Assembly: GCA_020721645.1 (NCBI GenBank)
Contig: DYMH01000019.1
Coordinates: forward strand, 3,742-38,124
Source of the DNA: Draconibacterium orientale
GTDB lineage: Bacteria; Bacteroidota; Bacteroidia; Bacteroidales; JAADGE01
Direction: 5' to 3'
DNA: 34,383 nt
The first letter of the stretch is position 1. Each line of letters starts with the position of its first letter. A model generated the notes under the pieces. It was given only the letters and a program-made list of their open reading frames with translations, made no database searches and was not told where the DNA came from. Positions 18,337-29,039 of this stretch are shown one piece after another. A program made the translations under genes and the position numbers.

Positions 18337-19005
18337 ATGAAAACAAAAAGAAATACCATAGACCCAATCGGGAAATTAATGTCCTTGCGTTACAAGTCGC
18401 ACCCGTGGCATGGTGTGGACATTGGCGAAAATGCACCCAATGTTGTTACCTGTTTTATCGAAATGGTGCCAACCGACACTGTAAAATACGAAGTTGAAAA
18501 GGCGAGCGGATATTTAACAATCGACCGTCCGCAAAAATATTCGAGTATTTTGCCTGCATTGTACGGTTTTATACCACAATCTTATTGTGGAAAAACTGTT
18601 GGCGGTGTAAGTGCCGGTGTGCTGAAACGCCCGGAAATTGTGGGCGACGGCGACCCCTTAGATGTTTGCGTGCTCACCGAAAAAGAAATAACGCACGGCG
18701 ACATTCTTGTGCAAGCCCGACCAATAGGCGGTTTCCGTATGCTCGACGGCAACGAAGCCGATGATAAAATTATCGCTGTTTTGGTAGGAGATGCTGTTTA
18801 CGGCGAATATAAAGACATAACCGATTGCCCGAATGCCGTTGTCGAACGCCTGCGACACTATTTCTTAACCTATAAAGATATGCCCGGCGATGAAAAAAGC
18901 CGTTGCGAAATTACACACATTTACGGACGCAAAGAAGCCGTAGATTTAATTACAAATGCCATGGACGATTACCACGATTATGTGGAAAGTGTGTTGTTTC
19001 ATTAA
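18337..19005 (+). CDS. ppa: Family I inorganic pyrophosphatase
   Basis: Product of 222 residues hydrolysing pyrophosphate to two phosphates in the cytoplasm. DGDPLDVCV (Asp104, Asp106, Asp109) is the metal-binding signature of family I. IDRPQKYSSILPALYGFIP is the conserved substrate-binding strand and loop. The N-terminus (IDPIGKLMSLRYKSHPWHG) is longer than in E. coli Ppa and seems typical of Bacteroidota. I chose ATG 18337; an earlier ATG at 18289 overlaps the ABC-F stop and would add a non-conserved 16 residues. It converges with the next gene; the two stops overlap in the palindrome TTAA. Confidence 0.93.
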   Translation: MKTKRNTIDPIGKLMSLRYKSHPWHGVDIGENAPNVVTCFIEMVPTDTVKYEVEKASGYLTIDRPQKYSSILPALYGFIPQSYCGKTVGGVSAGVLKRPEIVGDGDPLDVCVLTEKEITHGDILVQARPIGGFRMLDGNEADDKIIAVLVGDAVYGEYKDITDCPNAVVERLRHYFLTYKDMPGDEKSRCEITHIYGRKEAVDLITNAMDDYHDYVESVLFH

Positions 19006-20060
19006 AACACAATCTTTATAAAATAATCTGTACCGGTTCTGATTTTTAAAATGAAGAAGCCTTTGTGCAGTTTGCTGAACATATCTGAAAACATTATTTT
19101 ATTAAATCCGGAATGCAAAAGAATTTGTTTTCCGGATATTTTTTTGCCCGAAACATCGAAAAGTTCAAAATTGGTATTAATCGACTGATTTGAATGTATT
19201 TGGAGTACCGAATTTGAAGAAATAGGGTTGGGATAAACAGAAATTTGAGAAACTGCGGGCAACTGAAATTCGGAAGTTGTTTGAACAATTACCGTCCATG
19301 TTGAAAAAGATCCATCGGCTGCGGTGATTTTATATGGCAATGAGCCGCCCGAAAAATCGTTTGTTGTAATACCACTTTCCTGCACAATTTCGTTTACTGA
19401 GGCTTGCGAATTTGCCGAAATCACAAAATTTGATACAATTGCATTTAAGTTGGTAGCTTCGGGCAGTTCGAGTGTAATATTTTTTTCGCCGGCATCAATT
19501 ATTCCGAATATTTCAAAAGTATTTATATTAACAGAGTATCTTAAAATTTCCTTACACGAACATATATTTTCGGTATATCCGTAGTAATGAAGCGTATCGA
19601 TTAGGTCGGTGGATTGTCCGATATTCATATTGTCGATCAAAATCTTATTTGCGGCATCAATCAATATTTTGTAAGGCGTGTAATTTACGTTGAAAATGTT
19701 GAAGACCTCATTCCCATTGCCTTCTATGCCGCTTGCAACCGGGAAATTCATGCCAAATTCTTGTGTAAAATCATAAACCGATTCGTCGTCTGCAAATTTG
19801 TTGATGCCCAAGAAAACGATATTGTCGCAATTGCAGCCAAAAGCTCGAAACACTGTATCAATAATTGGACTCAGTACTTGGCACGACACACAGCTTGTGG
19901 TAAAAAAGTCGAGGAATACCGATTTACCTTGGGCTTGATATTCGCTCAATGTGTGTCTGATGCCGTAAATATCGGTTACTGTAAAATCGTTGGATTTGTT
20001 TTGTGCCCAACTTGTTGAAATTGTGATAAAAAAGATTAAAATGAGAACCGAATTTTTCAT
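19002..20060 (-). CDS. Secreted thioredoxin-like protein with type IX secretion sorting domain
   Basis: Product of 352 residues. A signal peptide (MKNSVLILIFFITISTSWA) is followed by a thioredoxin fold with the redox motif CVSC (Cys57, Cys60) and cis-Pro in VNYTPYKIL. Next is a beta domain with ITAADGSFSTWTVIV, similar to DUF5018-like Ig-type modules. Last is a por/T9SS type A sorting tail starting SVYPNPISSN and ending GTDYFIKIVF. It is thus likely exported by the type IX system to the cell surface as a thiol oxidoreductase or disulfide carrier. Additional cysteines (CNC near 75, ICSC near 171) may take part. Partners are unknown. Confidence 0.82.
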   Translation of the reverse strand: MKNSVLILIFFITISTSWAQNKSNDFTVTDIYGIRHTLSEYQAQGKSVFLDFFTTSCVSCQVLSPIIDTVFRAFGCNCDNIVFLGINKFADDESVYDFTQEFGMNFPVASGIEGNGNEVFNIFNVNYTPYKILIDAANKILIDNMNIGQSTDLIDTLHYYGYTENICSCKEILRYSVNINTFEIFGIIDAGEKNITLELPEATNLNAIVSNFVISANSQASVNEIVQESGITTNDFSGGSLPYKITAADGSFSTWTVIVQTTSEFQLPAVSQISVYPNPISSNSVLQIHSNQSINTNFELFDVSGKKISGKQILLHSGFNKIMFSDMFSKLHKGFFILKIRTGTDYFIKIVF

Positions 20061-20352: not shown

Positions 20353-23300
20353 TTATATTTTCACACCAATCACCAAAATATCGTCAATTTGTTCGCTCAC
20401 ACCGTCTCTCCAGTTTTCGATGGTGTCATCAAGTAATTTGCGTTGCTCCTTCATCGAAAGATTTTGAATATCGGTCAGCAATTTTTTGAACCTTCCTGAC
20501 ATAAATTTTTTGCCTCGGCTCCCGCCAAATTGGTCGGCGTAGCCGTCCGAAAATACATACAGAGAATCGCCGCTTTGAATTGAAATGACATGATTTGTGA
20601 AACTGTTTTTATCGCCTTCAAATTCGTATATTCCGATAGGCATGTGGTCGGCATCGGTTGTTAATATTTCTTGATTTCGAACCAAATATAGCGGATTGAA
20701 TGCTCCGGCAAATTGTAATTCCATTTTTTCACGGTCTATAACACACAATGCAATGTCCATACCGTCTTTTGCTTCGTGCACTTCGCCGGTTTGATGCAGT
20801 GTTTCAATAATTTTTTGTCGCAATTGGTTCAGCACATCGGAGGCAGATAATTCCATACTTTGGCTGATGATATTGTTCAGGAAAGTAATTCCGAGCATGC
20901 TCATAAATGCACCCGGAACGCCGTGTCCGGTGCAATCGGCTGCGGCATAGTACAATTTGTTGTCTTTTGTTGCAACCCAATAATAATCGCCGCTGACAAT
21001 ATCGCGAGGCTTGAAGAGTATAAAATTCTCAGGCATTACGCTGTTTATGTAATTGTCAGGAGGTAAAATTGCATTCTGAATGCGTTTTGCGTACAAAATA
21101 CTTGCTTCAATTTCTTCTTTTTGATGAATAATTTCGTCGCGTTGCGATTCGGCTAAATCTCTTTGTGCTTGAATTTCATCACGTTGCGAAAGAATTTCCT
21201 CTTTTTGATGTTCTAATTCAACATTTTTTTCTCTGATTTCGTGGGTTCGTTCTTCGACAACTTTTTCGAGATGTTCATTGCGTTTTCTCAACAAACGAAC
21301 TCGCCATTTTATTATTAACCAAATAATTACAATAAAAGAAACGACAACGGAAATCAAAAACCACCATTCGGCGTAGAACGGTTTTTCGATTACAAAATCA
21401 ATGCCTTGGTAGTAGCTCCAAATGTCGTCTTTCCCTTTGGCACGATACTTAAAACTGTATGTACCGGGAGGCAAATTTTGATATTTTGCAACATTTTCTT
21501 TCCCGCGCGAAGCCACGTAATCGTTGTCCAATCCTTTTAAATAAAATTCATATTCTACCGATTTTTCATCTTTGAACGAAAGTCCGGAAATTTCAAAAGT
21601 GATGTTATTATCGTTGTGTTTCAATATTTTAGGAAGCGAATGAAGAACAACCCGGTTCAATTCAATGGATTCGATTCTTACAACAGGCACGGTTTTTTCC
21701 GATTTTTTCTTTTTGATGTCGAAAGTTGCTATGCCGTGATAACTTCCTATCCACAATATTCCGCGACCATCGAGAAACAGTCCGTCAATAGCTGTTTCAT
21801 TGCCCGGAAGACCGTCTTTTGAAGTAATCATAAATTCGACTGTATTTTTTCGGAGATTGTAATACATGACTCCATTGTCTGTTCCGAGCCATATTTTTTC
21901 GGGGTCGGCAGCGGGTATTACAGCATTGACAACCTTTTCGGAGAGAAATTCAGAGTCGATGTACTTGAATTTTTTATCTTTGTAATAGCCCAAACCCTTT
22001 TCGGTTCCCACCCAAATCACATTTTCGGGTTTATTGGTCTGTGGATTAAAAATATAGCCTTTGTTGAGCGACCACACCGGCGAGTCGGTATTATATAATT
22101 TGAAAAAAGAATCGAGAATAAAAATTACCAAGCCGGTGCTGTTGCCCCCGTATATTTTTCCATCAATTTCGCGTAATTGGTAAATTAGTCGAGTGGCATG
22201 GTTTTCAATTACAATTGGCTCTGCATCAAAATTTTTCAGATAATAGACCACGCCGTTTAATCCTGTAAGCAAGAATATTTCGCCTTTTGATGATATAAAA
22301 ATATCTTCGAGGTGGAATAACGTGTTTGAAAATTTTCGAGTTTTTTTTATTTTCAGCGTGTTTACATCTATTTCGTAGAGTGCATCAACGTTACCAATTA
22401 TGATATTTTTATTGGGTAAACTTGATATGACGAATGATTTATTGGTGCTTTTAAAAATATCCGAAAAATTGACTAATTTGTCTTTGAAATAATAAATGTC
22501 GTTGTTCATGCCAAACCAAATCCGAGAATTATTGTCTTCGAATATCGAATTGACATAGCTGTTTAATTTTTCGGGATAAAATGTTCGTAAACTTTTATTG
22601 GTTAGTTTTTGAATGCCGCCCGAAAATCCAAACCACATATTATCTTCATTATCAATCAAAAAGGATAATATTCGATATCGTTTCAATCCTATTTTATCAT
22701 CGTAAACAATGGGTTTTTGTTTCAGTGTGAGGATTTGAAGAACGTTGTAATCTGTTGTCAGCCAAACAGAACCGTCATCGGTTTGTTGAATTTTACGAAT
22801 AATTTCGTTTTCGAGATTTAATATCGAATTGACTTTTTTCCCTATGGATTTTTTTTCAATATCTTCTTTATCTGCGTAATACAAACCGGTTTGTGTTGAT
22901 GTCCACAATTTATTATCGGTGTCGTACATTGCAAAGTGGCAATATTCACTGCTGATTTTGTCGATTGTATTGTTTGAATGTAAAATAAAAAGACCTTCGC
23001 TGGCTGCAATGGCTAAATTTTTATTTTTAGGGTTTTGAGAAACCGAATGCACTTTTGTGGGTAAATCCCTAAGATTTTCATTGAGATTAATCAGTTTGTT
23101 GTTTTCGCTCAATTCGGTAATTCCGTGGTCTCCGTAGAAAAATTTATTATCGTTTCGGTCGATAAAAATATCGTAAAACGAAATGCCTTTAAAAATGGTT
23201 TTAATGGAGTCCGAATTTTTTTCGAGATACGAAACGCCGTCGAGAGTTGCAAAATAAATTGTCCCTTTTGCGTCTTGTTTGATGCTGTAAACAGCATTGT

Positions 23301-25074
23301 TCGATAAGCCTGTGTCGGAATTATAAACTTTCATTTTTCGCCCGTTATATTTAACTGCACCGGCGTAGGTTCCAAACCACATGTAGCCGTCTTGGTCCTG
23401 AAAAATGGATAATATATCTTCTTGCGGAATACCTGCTTCGGTTCCGTAGAAAACGAATGGGAAATAGCCTTCTTGGTAGCTTTCGTGCAACACAGTTAAA
23501 TAATTTTGTGCTGCTTTGAGGGTCATTCCGGTTTGTGTTTTAAAATAATAATCGAGTGTTCCGTCTTTTTGAGCCCATTCTACAAATTCCAGTATTTTTT
23601 GGCGTAACTTAGGTTGATTTTTTTTAATTGCCCAGCCCATTTTGTTGATTTCGCCTAATACAAATTTTGCTTCGAGGTCCGGATAATCTGCTAAATTGAA
23701 AACTTCAACATTGGAAATTGTGTAGTCGGCTTTACCTGATAATATTTCTTTAAAAAAGTCGTTTCCGTCGGTATAATAGTAATTTGTTATGGAATTTTTC
23801 AACAATTCGTTTTCGTAAGAAGAACCTTTTGAGGTAACACCGCGAAGATTTCGTAAATCGTTGATTGAAGAGATTTTGGTTTTTTTCTTCCCGATAACCA
23901 CTTTGGCATTAGGTAAAAAATCAATAATATCAACTTTTTTCAAACGCCAATCCAAGGGTTCAATCATATCGCAGGCGACATCGAATTTGTTGAACCAAGC
24001 AGGCAAATAGGAACTGTCTTTAACAATCGAGCCTTTGTCGTCTTCAAAATAGTCGGAAAATGTGGGTGTGATAACGATTTCAAATTCAACCCCGAGATAT
24101 TTAGCAAATTGTTCGGCTAATTCGTGGTTGAATTGTTTTTTTCCGTCTTTATGATATACCAATTCGCGGTCGCGTAGGGCGATGATGATTTTTCCGGATT
24201 CGAGAATTTCGTCTAAATCGCGGCTTTCGGAGTTTTGTTGCGATTGAGCGTATGAATTGATGATATCGAAATAAGTTGAATAGTTGATGCCGTATTTTTC
24301 GCGAAACAGCACGTCCATTTTGCCGTTTCCACGGATTGTGGCATAAAAATTTTCGATTTCGTTTTTCAGTGAGATATTGCCGTTTTCCACAGCCCAGCCT
24401 ACTTCGCTTGGGTGTGCTACCGGAAAGGCAAGTTTAAAGTCTTTTGAATTTTTGATATAGCCCAAAGCGAGATACGACGTGGTGATGAGCCCATCGATTT
24501 GTCCTTGGCGAAGAAGTGAGAGGGCATCTTCTTCGGAAGTTGTTTTGCTGAGTAAAATACCGCCTCCGATTTCTTTGTTTATGATGTTGATGTCGTTTTC
24601 GTAGCTCGAATTTTCGAGAAATCCAATTCTCAATCCTTTCAAATTCTCGTAACTTTTAACATCGTGCCCTTTTTTTTCTTTGAGATTGGAACGAACTATC
24701 AGCAAATCGCTGATACTGACCATTCCGGCATAATCGAAAAATTTTTTCCGCCAGTCAATAACATAAATTGTTCCGCCGATGATGTCGGCTTTTTTCAGTG
24801 CATCGGGAGTGTACGATATTTTAGGGTTGGTTTTGTAGTCTTTGTCAATGGTGCCGTTTTGGGAGAAAATTTCGTCCCAAGTTATCGGAACAGGCTCCAT
24901 TCTGACGTTCAGGAAGCGGGCAAATTCTTCGGCGGTTATAAAATTAATGGTGTTCATCCAACTTTGAGTGAACCCAACGTATAATACTCCGCTTCGTTTT
25001 ATTTCTTCCAAAGTTCTTGAAAATGAAATAAAAGGCAAAAAAACGATAAGGATTATACTGAAAATTTTTTTCAT
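20353..25074 (-). CDS. Dual solute-binding / Reg_prop receptor with SpoIIE (PP2C) phosphatase
   Basis: Product of 1573 residues. In order it has: a signal peptide (1-20); a first SBP_bac_3-like domain (about 22-275, starting EIKRSGVLYVGFT); a second (about 285-525, starting EILESGKIIIALRDREL); Reg_prop propeller repeats (about 540-1130, e.g. DGYMWFGT, GILWIGSYHG); Y_Y_Y (about 1145-1230, with LPPGTYSFKYRAKG); a membrane helix (about 1236-1257); a coiled coil with repeated SQRDEI/QRDEI (to about 1330); and a SpoIIE phosphatase with SGDYYW, ADCTGHGVPGAFM, DSLYVFSDGYADQFGG and QIDDILVI. Sensing is predicted in the periplasm and Ser/Thr dephosphorylation in the cytoplasm. The SiaC-like protein encoded 1.7 kb upstream is the likely substrate, by analogy with SiaA. 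Ligands are unknown. Confidence 0.9.
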   Translation of the reverse strand: MKKIFSIILIVFLPFISFSRTLEEIKRSGVLYVGFTQSWMNTINFITAEEFARFLNVRMEPVPITWDEIFSQNGTIDKDYKTNPKISYTPDALKKADIIGGTIYVIDWRKKFFDYAGMVSISDLLIVRSNLKEKKGHDVKSYENLKGLRIGFLENSSYENDINIINKEIGGGILLSKTTSEEDALSLLRQGQIDGLITTSYLALGYIKNSKDFKLAFPVAHPSEVGWAVENGNISLKNEIENFYATIRGNGKMDVLFREKYGINYSTYFDIINSYAQSQQNSESRDLDEILESGKIIIALRDRELVYHKDGKKQFNHELAEQFAKYLGVEFEIVITPTFSDYFEDDKGSIVKDSSYLPAWFNKFDVACDMIEPLDWRLKKVDIIDFLPNAKVVIGKKKTKISSINDLRNLRGVTSKGSSYENELLKNSITNYYYTDGNDFFKEILSGKADYTISNVEVFNLADYPDLEAKFVLGEINKMGWAIKKNQPKLRQKILEFVEWAQKDGTLDYYFKTQTGMTLKAAQNYLTVLHESYQEGYFPFVFYGTEAGIPQEDILSIFQDQDGYMWFGTYAGAVKYNGRKMKVYNSDTGLSNNAVYSIKQDAKGTIYFATLDGVSYLEKNSDSIKTIFKGISFYDIFIDRNDNKFFYGDHGITELSENNKLINLNENLRDLPTKVHSVSQNPKNKNLAIAASEGLFILHSNNTIDKISSEYCHFAMYDTDNKLWTSTQTGLYYADKEDIEKKSIGKKVNSILNLENEIIRKIQQTDDGSVWLTTDYNVLQILTLKQKPIVYDDKIGLKRYRILSFLIDNEDNMWFGFSGGIQKLTNKSLRTFYPEKLNSYVNSIFEDNNSRIWFGMNNDIYYFKDKLVNFSDIFKSTNKSFVISSLPNKNIIIGNVDALYEIDVNTLKIKKTRKFSNTLFHLEDIFISSKGEIFLLTGLNGVVYYLKNFDAEPIVIENHATRLIYQLREIDGKIYGGNSTGLVIFILDSFFKLYNTDSPVWSLNKGYIFNPQTNKPENVIWVGTEKGLGYYKDKKFKYIDSEFLSEKVVNAVIPAADPEKIWLGTDNGVMYYNLRKNTVEFMITSKDGLPGNETAIDGLFLDGRGILWIGSYHGIATFDIKKKKSEKTVPVVRIESIELNRVVLHSLPKILKHNDNNITFEISGLSFKDEKSVEYEFYLKGLDNDYVASRGKENVAKYQNLPPGTYSFKYRAKGKDDIWSYYQGIDFVIEKPFYAEWWFLISVVVSFIVIIWLIIKWRVRLLRKRNEHLEKVVEERTHEIREKNVELEHQKEEILSQRDEIQAQRDLAESQRDEIIHQKEEIEASILYAKRIQNAILPPDNYINSVMPENFILFKPRDIVSGDYYWVATKDNKLYYAAADCTGHGVPGAFMSMLGITFLNNIISQSMELSASDVLNQLRQKIIETLHQTGEVHEAKDGMDIALCVIDREKMELQFAGAFNPLYLVRNQEILTTDADHMPIGIYEFEGDKNSFTNHVISIQSGDSLYVFSDGYADQFGGSRGKKFMSGRFKKLLTDIQNLSMKEQRKLLDDTIENWRDGVSEQIDDILVIGVKI

Positions 25075-25138: not shown

Positions 25139-25171
25139 TAAAAGTAGAATATTTTATCAAATTACAACAAA
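25139..25171 (-). promoter_or_regulatory. Candidate promoter of the receptor phosphatase gene
   Basis: On the minus strand, TTTG (25171-25168), 21 bases, then TACTTTTA (25146-25139), one mismatch to TAnnTTTG. The -33 lies in the last codons of thrC. The gene starts 64 bases later, so it can be transcribed apart from thrC. Confidence 0.45.
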
Positions 25172-26406
25172 TTTTGTACCGCTTCGATATTTGGTTTTAC
25201 GGCTTGTGGAATGTTAAGAAATGGTTGAACAGCGTTTAGGTCTTTCAGTCCGCTGCCTGTAAGTAAAACAAGCCATTTTTCGTTGCGATAAAAAGTCGAT
25301 TCCCTGCTCATTTTCAGCATTCCGGCAAATGCGGCAGTTGCTGCGGGTTCTGAAAATATTCCACTGTTGCGGCTCAATATTATCGAGGCATTGATGATTT
25401 GGTCGTCGCTTACTTTTATCGTTTTTCCTTGATATTTTTCCAAAAATTGAGCTGCCATATAGAAATTACGTGGAATATCCACCGAAATCGAGTCGGCTTT
25501 TGTTGTTGCTGCTGCAAATTGAAATTCTTTGCGGTTCACATTATCAACCAAATTACTGCTTGTTTCTGCCTGAACAGCAACAATTTCGGGTATTTTATCA
25601 ATCAACCCGAGTTTCAGTAAATCTTCAAAACCTTTGTAAACGCCCGCAATGATAACTCCATCGCCTACCGAAACGAAAATTTTATCGGGCAGTGTGTCCG
25701 AAAATTGTGAGAAAATTTCTAAGGAAACCGTTTTTTTTCCTTCAATGGTTAGTGGGTTGAAAGCCGTATTGCGATTGTAGTATCCGTATTTTTCGCTTAC
25801 GGCGATACTTAAATCGAAGGCGGTGTCGTAATTTCCGTCCACAGGAACAATTTTAGCTCCGTACATCACAATTTGTGTTAATTTGGCTTTTGGTGCCGAA
25901 GCCGGAAGAAAAATCACGGCTTTTTGATTTTGCGAAGCACAAATTCCGGCGAGCGATGAACCGGCATTGCCCGTAGATGCCGCTATTATTGTGTCAATAT
26001 TTCGTTCTTTGGCAAACGCCGAAACCAGATACGAAGCTCGGTCTTTGAATGAATATGTCGGATTTTGCGAATCGTCTTTTATGTAGAGTTGAAACGGTAG
26101 AGCTTCTTTATCAATCGAATTTATTTTGTAAACGGGTGTTTGACCAACTTTGAGAGGCGGATAATTTACCGGATTTTCGATTGGCATGATGTCGGAATAA
26201 TCGAAATTCACTATTTTAGAAATCAGTTCTTGTCTTGTGTTTTCTGTTTTAATTTTATCGAAACGATAAAGTGTTTTCAAAACGCCCTGAGGTGGTTTGT
26301 CGGTTGTGTTTTTCGATTTACAAGCAGGGCAAAGATATATAATTGATTCCGATGTATATTCTGTTCCGCAATCGGTGCATTTGTAGTAGAATTTTGATTC
26401 GCTCAT
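25162..26406 (-). CDS. thrC: Threonine synthase with N-terminal zinc ribbon
   Basis: Product of 414 residues, PLP-dependent, converting O-phosphohomoserine to threonine. A zinc ribbon (Cys10, Cys13, Cys26, Cys29) precedes the fold-type II domain. PTYSFKDRAS contains the PLP-binding Lys121, STGNAGSS (144-151) is the phosphate-binding loop, and LTGSGLKD near the end contacts the ring. A close alternative is a threonine-synthase-like paralogue, since the family includes near relatives of unknown substrate. It begins at ATG 26406, 95 bases after xseB, and ends 87 bases before the phosphatase gene. Confidence 0.85.
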   Translation of the reverse strand: MSESKFYYKCTDCGTEYTSESIIYLCPACKSKNTTDKPPQGVLKTLYRFDKIKTENTRQELISKIVNFDYSDIMPIENPVNYPPLKVGQTPVYKINSIDKEALPFQLYIKDDSQNPTYSFKDRASYLVSAFAKERNIDTIIAASTGNAGSSLAGICASQNQKAVIFLPASAPKAKLTQIVMYGAKIVPVDGNYDTAFDLSIAVSEKYGYYNRNTAFNPLTIEGKKTVSLEIFSQFSDTLPDKIFVSVGDGVIIAGVYKGFEDLLKLGLIDKIPEIVAVQAETSSNLVDNVNRKEFQFAAATTKADSISVDIPRNFYMAAQFLEKYQGKTIKVSDDQIINASIILSRNSGIFSEPAATAAFAGMLKMSRESTFYRNEKWLVLLTGSGLKDLNAVQPFLNIPQAVKPNIEAVQNLL

Positions 26407-26501: not shown

Positions 26502-26696
26502 CTATTTGTCCTCAAAAATTGTTTCAATTTCTTTTTCGGTATTTCTCAATTTTTCGCTGCACGCTTTTATGAGTTCGGCAGCACGACTGACTTTTTTCGA
26601 GAGTTCGTCGATGTCTATTTCTTGGTTTTCGATTTGTCGAAGAATTTCTTCAATTTCGGCAACGGCTTCGGAGTAGTTTATTGTAGTTTTTTTCAT
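26502..26696 (-). CDS. xseB: Exodeoxyribonuclease VII small subunit
   Basis: Product of 64 residues, normal for XseB, forming a helical hairpin that binds the large subunit XseA. YSEAVAEIEEILRQIENQEIDIDELSKKV and the later KACSEKLRNTEKEIE match the family (sequence split here: INYSEAVAEIEEILRQ then IENQEIDIDELSKKV). Exonuclease VII degrades single-stranded DNA in mismatch and recombination repair. I chose ATG 26696; the extra ten upstream residues read from the terminator region and are not conserved. XseA, which usually lies just upstream, is not in the window. It comes directly after the siaC terminator, so it must use its own promoter or read-through. Confidence 0.85.
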   Translation of the reverse strand: MKKTTINYSEAVAEIEEILRQIENQEIDIDELSKKVSRAAELIKACSEKLRNTEKEIETIFEDK

Positions 26697-26723
26697 TTTT
26701 TTGTAGATATTCTGTTGATAAAT

Positions 26724-26773
26724 CATTAAAAAGGAATAATTATCAAAACCGAAGTTAAGATAATTATTCCTTT
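26724..26773 (-). terminator. Intrinsic terminator of the siaB-siaC unit
   Basis: A 15-bp perfect stem: AAAGGAATAATTATC (26730-26744) with GATAATTATTCCTTT (26759-26773), with a 14-base loop. On the minus strand the stem ends in TTT and continues TTAATG, 28 bases after the siaC stop. A-runs on the other side may give it activity in both directions. Confidence 0.7.
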
Positions 26774-26800
26774 AATTCACAAAGTGAACAAAATATTTTG

Positions 26801-27184
26801 TTAGAAAGGAATCAGATTGATTTCCAAGCCGGTATCAATCATATAGTCTTCAATATCCTCTTCCATGTCGGTGTCGTTTTCATCGTAATGCCAATTCACA
26901 ACCACTTCACCGCCTTCATCTTCATAATCTTTCAGCACGTTGAGCAGGTCGAGAATACATCGCGAAGTACTTGTGTTGAAATACGTGAGTTTAATAATGA
27001 AAGCGATAGGCTTTTTAACTGTTGTCGTATAGCTTTCGAGCCAATCTATCAATGGTTTGTAAAATTCAACGGTGTCTTCCAAAAACGATTCACCGGACAA
27101 CTCGCAAATGCCTGTTTTTAAGTTAAAATTTACCGACGGTGTGAAAAAATTGTCGTGTGCACCTTCTATGATTAAATCTTCCAT
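26801..27184 (-). CDS. SiaC-like (DUF1987) regulatory phosphoprotein
   Basis: Product of 127 residues. The pattern IEGAHDNFFTPSVNFN, then ICELSGESFLEDTVEFYKPL, LTYFNTSTSRCILDLL and VVVNWHYDENDTDMEEDIED is that of DUF1987. In Pseudomonas SiaC, a Thr in the YFNTS segment is phosphorylated by SiaB and dephosphorylated by SiaA; the matching residue here would be Thr71. It is the last of a four-gene unit behind three SiaB-like genes (24-base gap). In Pseudomonas the dephosphorylated form activates the cyclase SiaD, but no cyclase is in this window, so the target is unknown. Confidence 0.85.
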   Translation of the reverse strand: MEDLIIEGAHDNFFTPSVNFNLKTGICELSGESFLEDTVEFYKPLIDWLESYTTTVKKPIAFIIKLTYFNTSTSRCILDLLNVLKDYEDEGGEVVVNWHYDENDTDMEEDIEDYMIDTGLEINLIPF

Positions 27185-27208
27185 AAAAAAGAAATTATTT
27201 ACAATTTT

Positions 27209-27751
27209 TTATTTATTTATTTTAACAGCTATCGAAAAGTATGATTTTTCATCATCGAGTGGGCTGACTTCAATATCCAGAGGGTTTGCCGCTGTCAAAG
27301 CGACTTGTATCAGCCCGATGTGTGCATTTCCCAAATTTCCTTGCGGATGACGTCTTTGTTCGCGTTTGTATTCGCGTAAGCTTTCTCTATCCAACGAATT
27401 TATAAATTCACATTTTTCTATCAGTGGTATGATGTTGTCGTTCAATACGGCGTTTCCGGTGATAAAACTATACGAATCGGGAAATTCCATTATCAGCAAT
27501 GTTCCGTAACCGATGTGTTTGTCGGGTGCAAAATCTGATTTTTCTGCCGAATAATAGGATATATTTTGTGCCAATTCTATAAAAATTTTGAAAAGTTTTC
27601 GGCTTGCCTGTGGGTTGTTGTTGAGTATAACTTCAATATAACTTCCGATGACAGCCAGAATTTTTTCGTCAATAGGTCCCTTGTAAGATATCTTAACATC
27701 TTGATTTACAAAGTTTAAATAATCGTATAGGTTCCGGTTTTTTGCGTTCAT
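27209..27751 (-). CDS. SiaB-like (DUF6272) kinase, third copy
   Basis: Product of 180 residues. A GHKL-like N box is seen as FIELAQNISYYS (Glu59, Asn63), followed by a glycine segment GYGTLLI (81-87) and GNAHIGLIQVALT (141-153). The strongly conserved stretch LDRESLREYKREQR (120-133) is shared with its paralogues. By analogy with Pseudomonas SiaB it would phosphorylate the SiaC-like protein encoded 24 bases downstream. It is close to the first copy (28488-29039) and more distant from the middle one. No membrane segment, so it is cytoplasmic. Confidence 0.8.
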   Translation of the reverse strand: MNAKNRNLYDYLNFVNQDVKISYKGPIDEKILAVIGSYIEVILNNNPQASRKLFKIFIELAQNISYYSAEKSDFAPDKHIGYGTLLIMEFPDSYSFITGNAVLNDNIIPLIEKCEFINSLDRESLREYKREQRRHPQGNLGNAHIGLIQVALTAANPLDIEVSPLDDEKSYFSIAVKINK

Positions 27752-27805
27752 TTATCGAAATTTTCGACCGTTAAAAATAATAAATATTTTACTTTTTTTA
27801 CAGTT

Positions 27806-28405
27806 TTATTTAACTTTTATATTTTCTTTTTGAATATTGACATATATCGTGAAATAAAATCGATTTCTGTCGAGTTGTAAAAATTCGTATGTGATTTGTT
27901 TTTTTGTTGTTAAAGCTGTCATTATTAAACCAATATGAGCATTTCCGTTACTTCCCGGTAATAAATTTCGTTGTTCTTTTTTATATTTTCGCAATTCATC
28001 TTTTTCAAGGGCATTGATGATTTTAATTTTACGTTCCAAGGTATTTTTTGAGGCAAGAAAGATGATATTTCCGGTTACAAAATAATATTCCGATGCCTTT
28101 TCGCCGATAAGTAAAGAGCCTGCACCCGTATTTTTTTTGTCCGAAATTCGGCTTTTTTCGTTCGAGTAGAAAGCAACATTTTGTGATAATTCGATAAATG
28201 TAAAAAATAATTTCCGCCCGGCTTGTTGGTCTTCGGTTGTGAATAATTTCAACTTTTCGGCAAAACTCTTGATAATATCAGAATCGAAAGGTCCCGAATA
28301 ATCAATCAATATTTCTTCCGGTTTTAGGCGGTATATTTCTTTCAAATCGGGTTTAAAATCCAATTCGTAAGTATTATTAAGCGTATTTGTAACTTCGGGA
28401 ATCAT
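27806..28405 (-). CDS. SiaB-like (DUF6272) kinase, middle and most divergent copy
   Basis: Product of 199 residues. It keeps the N box FIELSQNVAFYS (Glu72, Asn76), AGSLLIGE, and GNAHIGL (154-160). The middle stretch is ALEKDELRKYKKEQR, in place of ALDRESLRDYKR. It has a longer N-terminus and a lysine-rich end (NIQKENIKVK). Key GHKL positions are kept, so activity is possible, but the drift suggests a different partner or a regulatory role. Gaps to neighbours are 82 and 54 bases, consistent with one operon. Confidence 0.75.
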   Translation of the reverse strand: MIPEVTNTLNNTYELDFKPDLKEIYRLKPEEILIDYSGPFDSDIIKSFAEKLKLFTTEDQQAGRKLFFTFIELSQNVAFYSNEKSRISDKKNTGAGSLLIGEKASEYYFVTGNIIFLASKNTLERKIKIINALEKDELRKYKKEQRNLLPGSNGNAHIGLIMTALTTKKQITYEFLQLDRNRFYFTIYVNIQKENIKVK

Positions 28406-28487
28406 TTTTGCCTTTAAATAATTATATTTTATAATGTTTTAACATTTCTTAAATAATATTTTCACATTCTCACATTTTCAAATTATC

Positions 28488-29039
28488 TCATTCTTTATTA
28501 ATTTTCACGGCAACAATATAGAATGCGAGCGTTTCATCAATAGGTATTAATCTGTATTCCAAAGGGTTTTCGGCTGTTAAAGCCACTTGAATCAGACCGA
28601 TATTTCCGCCGCCTTTTTCGCTCGGTGCTTGTTTTCGTTGAATGCGTTTATAATCGCGCAAAGATTCTCTGTCTAAGGCGTTAATTGCATTGCATTTATC
28701 AATAACCGGCTGTATTTTGATTTTATCGGTGATATTTCCCGTTGCAAAAGTAAAATAATCGTCAAATTCCTGTATCGTTAATGTGCCAATGCCCGAAATG
28801 CTGCCATCGGAAGCTTTTTGTTGTTCGTGTGAATAAAACGAAATATTTTGAGCCAGTTCAATAAAAATTTTAAACATCTTTTTATTGACACGGGGATTTT
28901 CCGAAAGTGAATATTCGATATTCTTTGCAATTACAGACAACACCTGCCCATCGAAAGCTCCGGTATATGATATTTGCACGTTTTGAGCAAGCATGCTCTG
29001 ATAAATGTGCTTTTTATCTTCCAACAATTCTGTTTTCAT
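28488..29039 (-). CDS. SiaB-like (DUF6272) kinase, first copy
   Basis: Product of 183 residues from ATG 29039. An upstream in-frame start at 29147 would add 36 hydrophobic residues that are not conserved in the paralogues and would overlap the promoter. N box: FIELAQNISFYS (Glu61, Asn65). Glycine segment: GIGTLTI. ALDRESLRDYKRIQR and GGGNIGLIQVALT (143-155) follow, where the paralogues read GNAHIGL. It is the promoter-proximal gene of the siaB-siaB-siaB-siaC unit, divergent from sbcC. Confidence 0.8.
   Translation of the reverse strand: MKTELLEDKKHIYQSMLAQNVQISYTGAFDGQVLSVIAKNIEYSLSENPRVNKKMFKIFIELAQNISFYSHEQQKASDGSISGIGTLTIQEFDDYFTFATGNITDKIKIQPVIDKCNAINALDRESLRDYKRIQRKQAPSEKGGGNIGLIQVALTAENPLEYRLIPIDETLAFYIVAVKINKE

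Follow-up and report, generated by a model that had tools for sequence, protein, structure and literature searches.

Here we describe a cluster of candidate signalling genes in a 34,383-nt stretch of DNA (hereafter the window) from a 3.8-Mb Bacteroidales-related MAG that is 97% complete. Three SiaB-like genes, siaB1 (28488-29039; 183 amino acids), siaB2 (27806-28405; 199 amino acids) and siaB3 (27209-27751; 180 amino acids), follow one another in the same orientation on the minus strand (29039-26801) and run into one siaC (26801-27184; 127 amino acids), with successive gaps of 82, 54 and 24 nt. They are assigned to clades alpha, beta, gamma and C-gamma, respectively. A terminator-like hairpin with a U run lies 3' of siaC on the same strand (about 26730-26775; 15 bp, A+T-rich, -23.3 kcal/mol, fold z = -5.98). 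It fits the shared terminator proposed in a first-pass annotation of the sequence, although a G+C-based terminator scan did not list the site. Promoter searches (a sigma-70 scan and a Bacteroidetes-type pattern) gave counts at chance level and nothing usable. Farther along the minus strand are xseB, encoding the small subunit of exonuclease VII (26502-26726; TIGR01280 above cut-off, and synteny), a threonine synthase-like gene (thrC; 25162-26406) and a gene for a SiaA-like membrane phosphatase (20353-25074), recognized by its domain profiles and its adjacency in relatives. An assembly artefact was ruled out, as an independent MAG (G001; L054/L152) shows the identical gene order.

Protein families, residues and the linked phosphatase

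The three SiaB proteins score above the cut-offs of Pfam DUF6272 (PF19788; 106, 99 and 113 bits for siaB1, siaB2 and siaB3; cut-off 26.6) and of the NCBIfam SiaB-family kinase model (NF038262; 121, 113 and 124 bits; cut-off 85), and below that of the SiaB equivalog (NF038264; 52, 47 and 69 bits; cut-off 225). siaB3 matches the SiaB of 6KKO (phmmer, 1.1e-12). SiaC reaches 137 bits with PF09345 (cut-off 24.5), matches 6KKO/6K4F (phmmer, 7e-16) and scores 82 bits with the SiaC equivalog NF038265, below its cut-off of 150. These scores bear out the first-pass description of three tandem SiaB-like genes beside a single SiaC gene, as do the sizes and gaps given above. DUF6272 was not found by name in the open literature searched; DUF1987 is named there in one paper.

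Among 27-28 diverse SiaB proteins, eight positions are invariant (G27, E61, N65, G85, N102, L127, G148 and L149 in siaB1 numbering). siaB1 and siaB2 retain all eight, and the same motifs are seen in siaB3; the N-box pair Glu61/Asn65, which the annotation had noticed, and the Gly-Leu of the lid are present in all three. AlphaFold models of siaB1 (pLDDT 90) and siaB2 (pLDDT 88; a confident GHKL fold) both have the SiaB chain of 6KKO as their best match (Foldseek E values of 1.4e-9 and 4.6e-9); siaB3 was placed by sequence only. All three are thus predicted, by homology, to be kinases. Identity is 49-50% between siaB1 and siaB3, 34-35% between siaB1 and siaB2, and 41% between siaB2 and siaB3. The picture of two close outer kinases and a drifted middle one is therefore right about the outer pair, whereas siaB2 is better seen as belonging to a separate old clade and is the fastest-changing of the three (52% identity between the window and L054, versus 69-71%), not a decayed copy. 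All three look to be under purifying selection, with dN/dS ≤0.24 wherever dS could be estimated; dS was saturated for the window-L054 comparisons of siaB1 and siaB2. In SiaC, Thr71 aligns with the phosphorylated Thr68 of Pseudomonas SiaC, and of 98 SiaC proteins, 92 have Thr and 6 have Ser at the equivalent site.

The SiaA-like protein (1573 amino acids) consists of a signal peptide, two SBP_bac_3-type solute-binding domains, a propeller, a Y_Y_Y domain, one transmembrane segment (near residues 1237-1255) and a PP2C/SpoIIE domain (PF07228; 67.7 bits, cut-off 25) with the acidic metal-site motifs SGDYYW, DCTGHG, SDG and DD. Among curated models its C-terminal part, including PP2C, is closest to SiaA (NF038263), at 172 bits for that part only and below the equivalog cut-off of 700. 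The phosphatase adjoins siaC-xseB in at least 14 family relatives, usually with xseB between, and it also lies near C-gamma in another family (f63). Because the gene order continues to the phosphatase in so many relatives, we count it as part of the module, and it is likely to be the phosphatase of the switch. The annotation had overlooked this gene, and also how many SiaB, SiaC and PP2C domains the genome encodes. xseB adjoins siaC in most relatives. The threonine synthase-like gene was not found between xseB and the siaA-like gene in the relatives examined; in the window genome this gene and the hairpin part the phosphatase from the switch genes. The phosphatase is also adjoined by a gene for a thioredoxin-like protein with a type IX secretion C-terminal tail (19002-20060); in L062 and L063 the phosphatase is followed by a gene 37-39% identical to it.

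Kinase lineages and gene orders in relatives

We compared the locus with those of 20 family relatives (21 genomes with the window genome). Nineteen of the 20 have a close SiaC orthologue, full-length in 18 (69-90% identity) and truncated at a contig end in one. The siaB1 orthologue is the first gene of the operon in 18 of 20, with one further contig cut off there, and the siaB3 orthologue stands immediately before siaC in most. The order alpha-gamma-SiaC occurs in 16 of 20 relatives; in one (G019) the order is alpha-SiaC, gamma being missing at the locus, and one contig ends inside gamma. The full order alpha-beta-gamma-SiaC is shared by the window and one relative of another genus (G001; L054 = L152), the only family relative with a siaB2 orthologue at this place. 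The search for tandem copies with genomic context, which the annotation had suggested, thus shows that a kinase pair is the rule in the family, that the triple is common to two genera, and that more than one kinase per SiaC is no quirk of the window genome.

Other orders are seen in the wider Bacteroidales. Fifteen loci in other families, many from ruminant MAGs, read alpha-Calpha-gamma-Cgamma-C', and in L117 and L120 alpha-Calpha-gamma-Cgamma is followed by PP2C and the same solute-binding type of SiaA. Six loci, including L165/L166, read beta-Cgamma-C', with beta as the sole adjacent kinase; L105 reads beta-gamma-Cgamma-C', L155 gamma-Cgamma-C' (gamma sole), L156 alpha-Cgamma (alpha sole), and three loci (L193, L196 and L214) alpha-Calpha. 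Each kinase clade is therefore somewhere the sole adjacent kinase beside C-gamma and away from a contig end (alpha in L156, gamma in L155, beta in L165/L166); L172 and L179, two single-gamma loci that begin close to the end of a contig, were left out of this evidence. Between L104 and L107, C-gamma is the best-conserved part (83% identity), compared with 60% and 56% for the other two SiaC proteins (C-alpha and C') and 52-54% for the kinases. A lone beta-like SiaB gene was observed in L224 (6036-6626) and L225 (6022-6660), with the SiaC operon elsewhere in those genomes; the L224 copy is flanked by PP2C genes.

Phylogenetic trees place siaB1 in alpha and siaB2 in beta (support 100/100 in each case), the latter a clade that spans other Bacteroidales families, whereas gamma forms a weakly resolved grade and not one clade, so the ancestry of alpha and gamma is not fully fixed. 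A single clade of the three window SiaB proteins is rejected by the AU test (p = 2.1e-8). This result, together with the orthologues in other families, rules out recent tandem duplication confined to this genome, the circumstance under which the annotation would have dropped its proposal. Inferred from sequence, the three window kinases are anciently separate lineages. In the ancestor, alpha and gamma may each have had its own SiaC, in the alpha-C-gamma-C order of relatives; loss of the first SiaC in the window family would then have left two kinases on one SiaC. A two-module operon losing one SiaC is the simplest reading of the orders. Beta would be a further old kinase, gained or retained, and is present as the third kinase in two genera. 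Given the wider orders alpha-SiaC-gamma-SiaC(-SiaC) and beta-SiaC-SiaC, the window-family kinases have probably outlived SiaC partners of their own.

Several kinases and one SiaC

We lean towards reading the locus as a partner switch of the SiaABC type whose single SiaC is acted on by several kinases, which may form mixed dimers; this mechanism is proposed from homology and comparison. SiaC (26801-27184) would be the hub and would be off when phosphorylated on Thr71. A periplasmic solute would be sensed by the membrane phosphatase (20353-25074), which would dephosphorylate SiaC, and dephosphorylated SiaC would bind and switch a target. Each of alpha, beta and gamma would phosphorylate this one SiaC, either as a homodimer or in mixed dimers, and its phosphorylated fraction would thereby reflect the sum or mix of the kinases. 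This reading draws on family membership and fold, the kinase pair before SiaC in 16 family genomes and the triple in two, the retained residues, the Thr71 site, the conservation of C-gamma, purifying selection, the adjacency of the phosphatase in the window family and in f63, the sole-kinase loci, and the fused two-kinase chains of 18 genomes described below. Against it, beta beside C-gamma elsewhere usually comes with a second SiaC, C', possibly its true substrate; alpha elsewhere pairs with C-alpha alone (in L193, L196 and L214); orphan SiaC proteins might be served in trans by the extra kinases; and the hairpin and thrC separate the phosphatase from the switch in the window genome.

A stricter arrangement, possible but improbable, is an obligate alpha-gamma heterodimer with one mainly catalytic and one mainly regulatory subunit, for which beta would be an alternative subunit. 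The SiaB-SiaC complex of Pseudomonas is 2:2 (PMC7647112), and the window genome itself encodes a single-chain SiaB-SiaB-SiaC protein of 525 amino acids (G000:C224:6033-7607; L236; L008:532-2106, minus strand). Of the 21 family genomes, 20 encode an orthologue, complete or partial, and in 18 the whole chain of three domains could be read; there the lid of half 1 is always GGAGLGL, and half 2 has an altered lid and keeps the Glu/Asn pair. In another fused group (G000:C181, that is L011, and L257-L259), half 2 of a double SiaB is without the N-box Glu (VK or VN) and the lid Gly-Leu, and judging by these residues it is likely to be a pseudokinase. Genus g5 combines a gamma that has an ELAENIS N-box and an xSPNIGL lid with an alpha that keeps GTGNIGL, which may point to a division of labour between the two. 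However, alpha is the sole kinase in G019/L156, and gamma is in L155, which indicates that neither always depends on the other; the lid of window gamma and beta is GNAHIGL, as it is in sole-kinase loci such as L132; and the fused halves belong to a SiaB subgroup distinct from the window kinases. As far as sequence goes, the fusions show that the window lineage makes use of a design in which one SiaC goes with two SiaB, a canonical and an altered one; they are no proof of mixed dimers in the window but lend indirect support to hetero-oligomers, which may form there. A family-wide version may also be proposed, tentatively: SiaB kinases of the window family would work as asymmetric pairs of a canonical and an altered-lid subunit, encoded as alpha-gamma genes and as single chains, to which two genera would add a third subunit that can be exchanged, and would constitute a heteromeric GHKL protein kinase whose SiaC has an output other than c-di-GMP synthesis.

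Two further arrangements were observed among these fused genes. In L011 and L257-L259 the SiaC gene lies on the opposite strand from the fused double SiaB, and at G000:C211:12945-15434 (L007, L045) a fused double SiaB is followed by three tandem SiaC, in all of which the phosphosite is Ser, not Thr.

It is doubtful that the kinases are insulated from one another, such that the adjacent SiaC would be served by gamma only and alpha and beta would phosphorylate other SiaC proteins of the genome. In relatives, the partner of alpha is C-alpha and that of beta is C', and the window genome holds 20 DUF6272, 15 SiaC and 41 SpoIIE/PP2C domains, with four SiaC proteins (C110, C113, C183 and C196) encoded without an adjacent SiaB. 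But no C-alpha or C' member was recognized elsewhere in the window genome, the orphans being only distantly related, the alpha-gamma-C linkage is retained across the family, and alpha alone and beta alone each occur beside C-gamma. Next to the C110 orphan, the opposite strand carries a PP2C gene.

Two readings are very unlikely. Redundant recent duplicates without separate roles would suit the commonness of tandem paralogues and the missing gamma in G019, but not the AU test, the separate lineages across families or the purifying selection. Nor is siaB2 at all probable as a non-catalytic brake, a role that the annotation had considered for one of the three and to which the fast change of siaB2 might have lent weight: it keeps every invariant residue and gives a confident GHKL model, a beta kinase is the sole adjacent kinase in six loci, and a dead-kinase brake of any kind is improbable in the window genome because all three kinases keep their catalytic residues and look to be under purifying selection.

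Comparison with known partner switches

The usual picture of a partner switch has a single kinase, a single phosphatase and a single phosphoprotein. In the present case several conserved kinases would converge on one SiaC, and related fusions join two kinase domains and their substrate in one chain; what we see appears to be a real and conserved multi-kinase version of the one-kinase switch of Pseudomonas. With its 20 SiaB, 15 SiaC and 41 PP2C domains and no diguanylate cyclase, the lineage could serve to examine how switches of this kind are wired and kept apart or merged, and what SiaC controls outside c-di-GMP signalling.

The GHKL-fold kinase, small STAS-like protein and PP2C phosphatase are also shared with SpoIIAB-SpoIIAA and RsbW-RsbV, and the window SiaB models give weak fold matches to SpoIIAB and RsbW; however, the sequence families are different and the window locus has no sigma factor. 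Another close counterpart is SiaABCD of Pseudomonas aeruginosa (SiaB kinase, SiaC phosphoprotein, SiaA PP2C phosphatase and SiaD diguanylate cyclase), in which SiaB phosphorylates SiaC on Thr68, SiaA removes the phosphate and free SiaC activates SiaD (PMC7647112, PMC7278518, PMC8457831). The two systems have in common the SiaB and SiaC families, the catalytic Glu61 and Asn, the phospho-Thr in NTS(S/T) and a membrane PP2C phosphatase nearby (PMC7647112, PMC7278518). The annotation's comparison with SiaABCD thus holds for kinase and substrate and breaks down at the output: no GGDEF domain was found in the 21 family genomes, including that of the window (controls were positive in 8 of 14 named genomes), so a c-di-GMP output is ruled out and the Pseudomonas model applies to the A-B-C part at most. 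Unlike the one-kinase SiaABCD, there are three kinases per SiaC in the window and two in 16 relatives, and the phosphatase sensor comprises two solute-binding domains and a propeller, whereas that of SiaA is HAMP-type. The fused SiaB-SiaB-SiaC proteins (G000:C224 and its orthologues) place two SiaB domains before one SiaC, as in alpha-gamma-SiaC, and differ in being one chain, of another SiaB subgroup, with an altered ATP lid in half 2.
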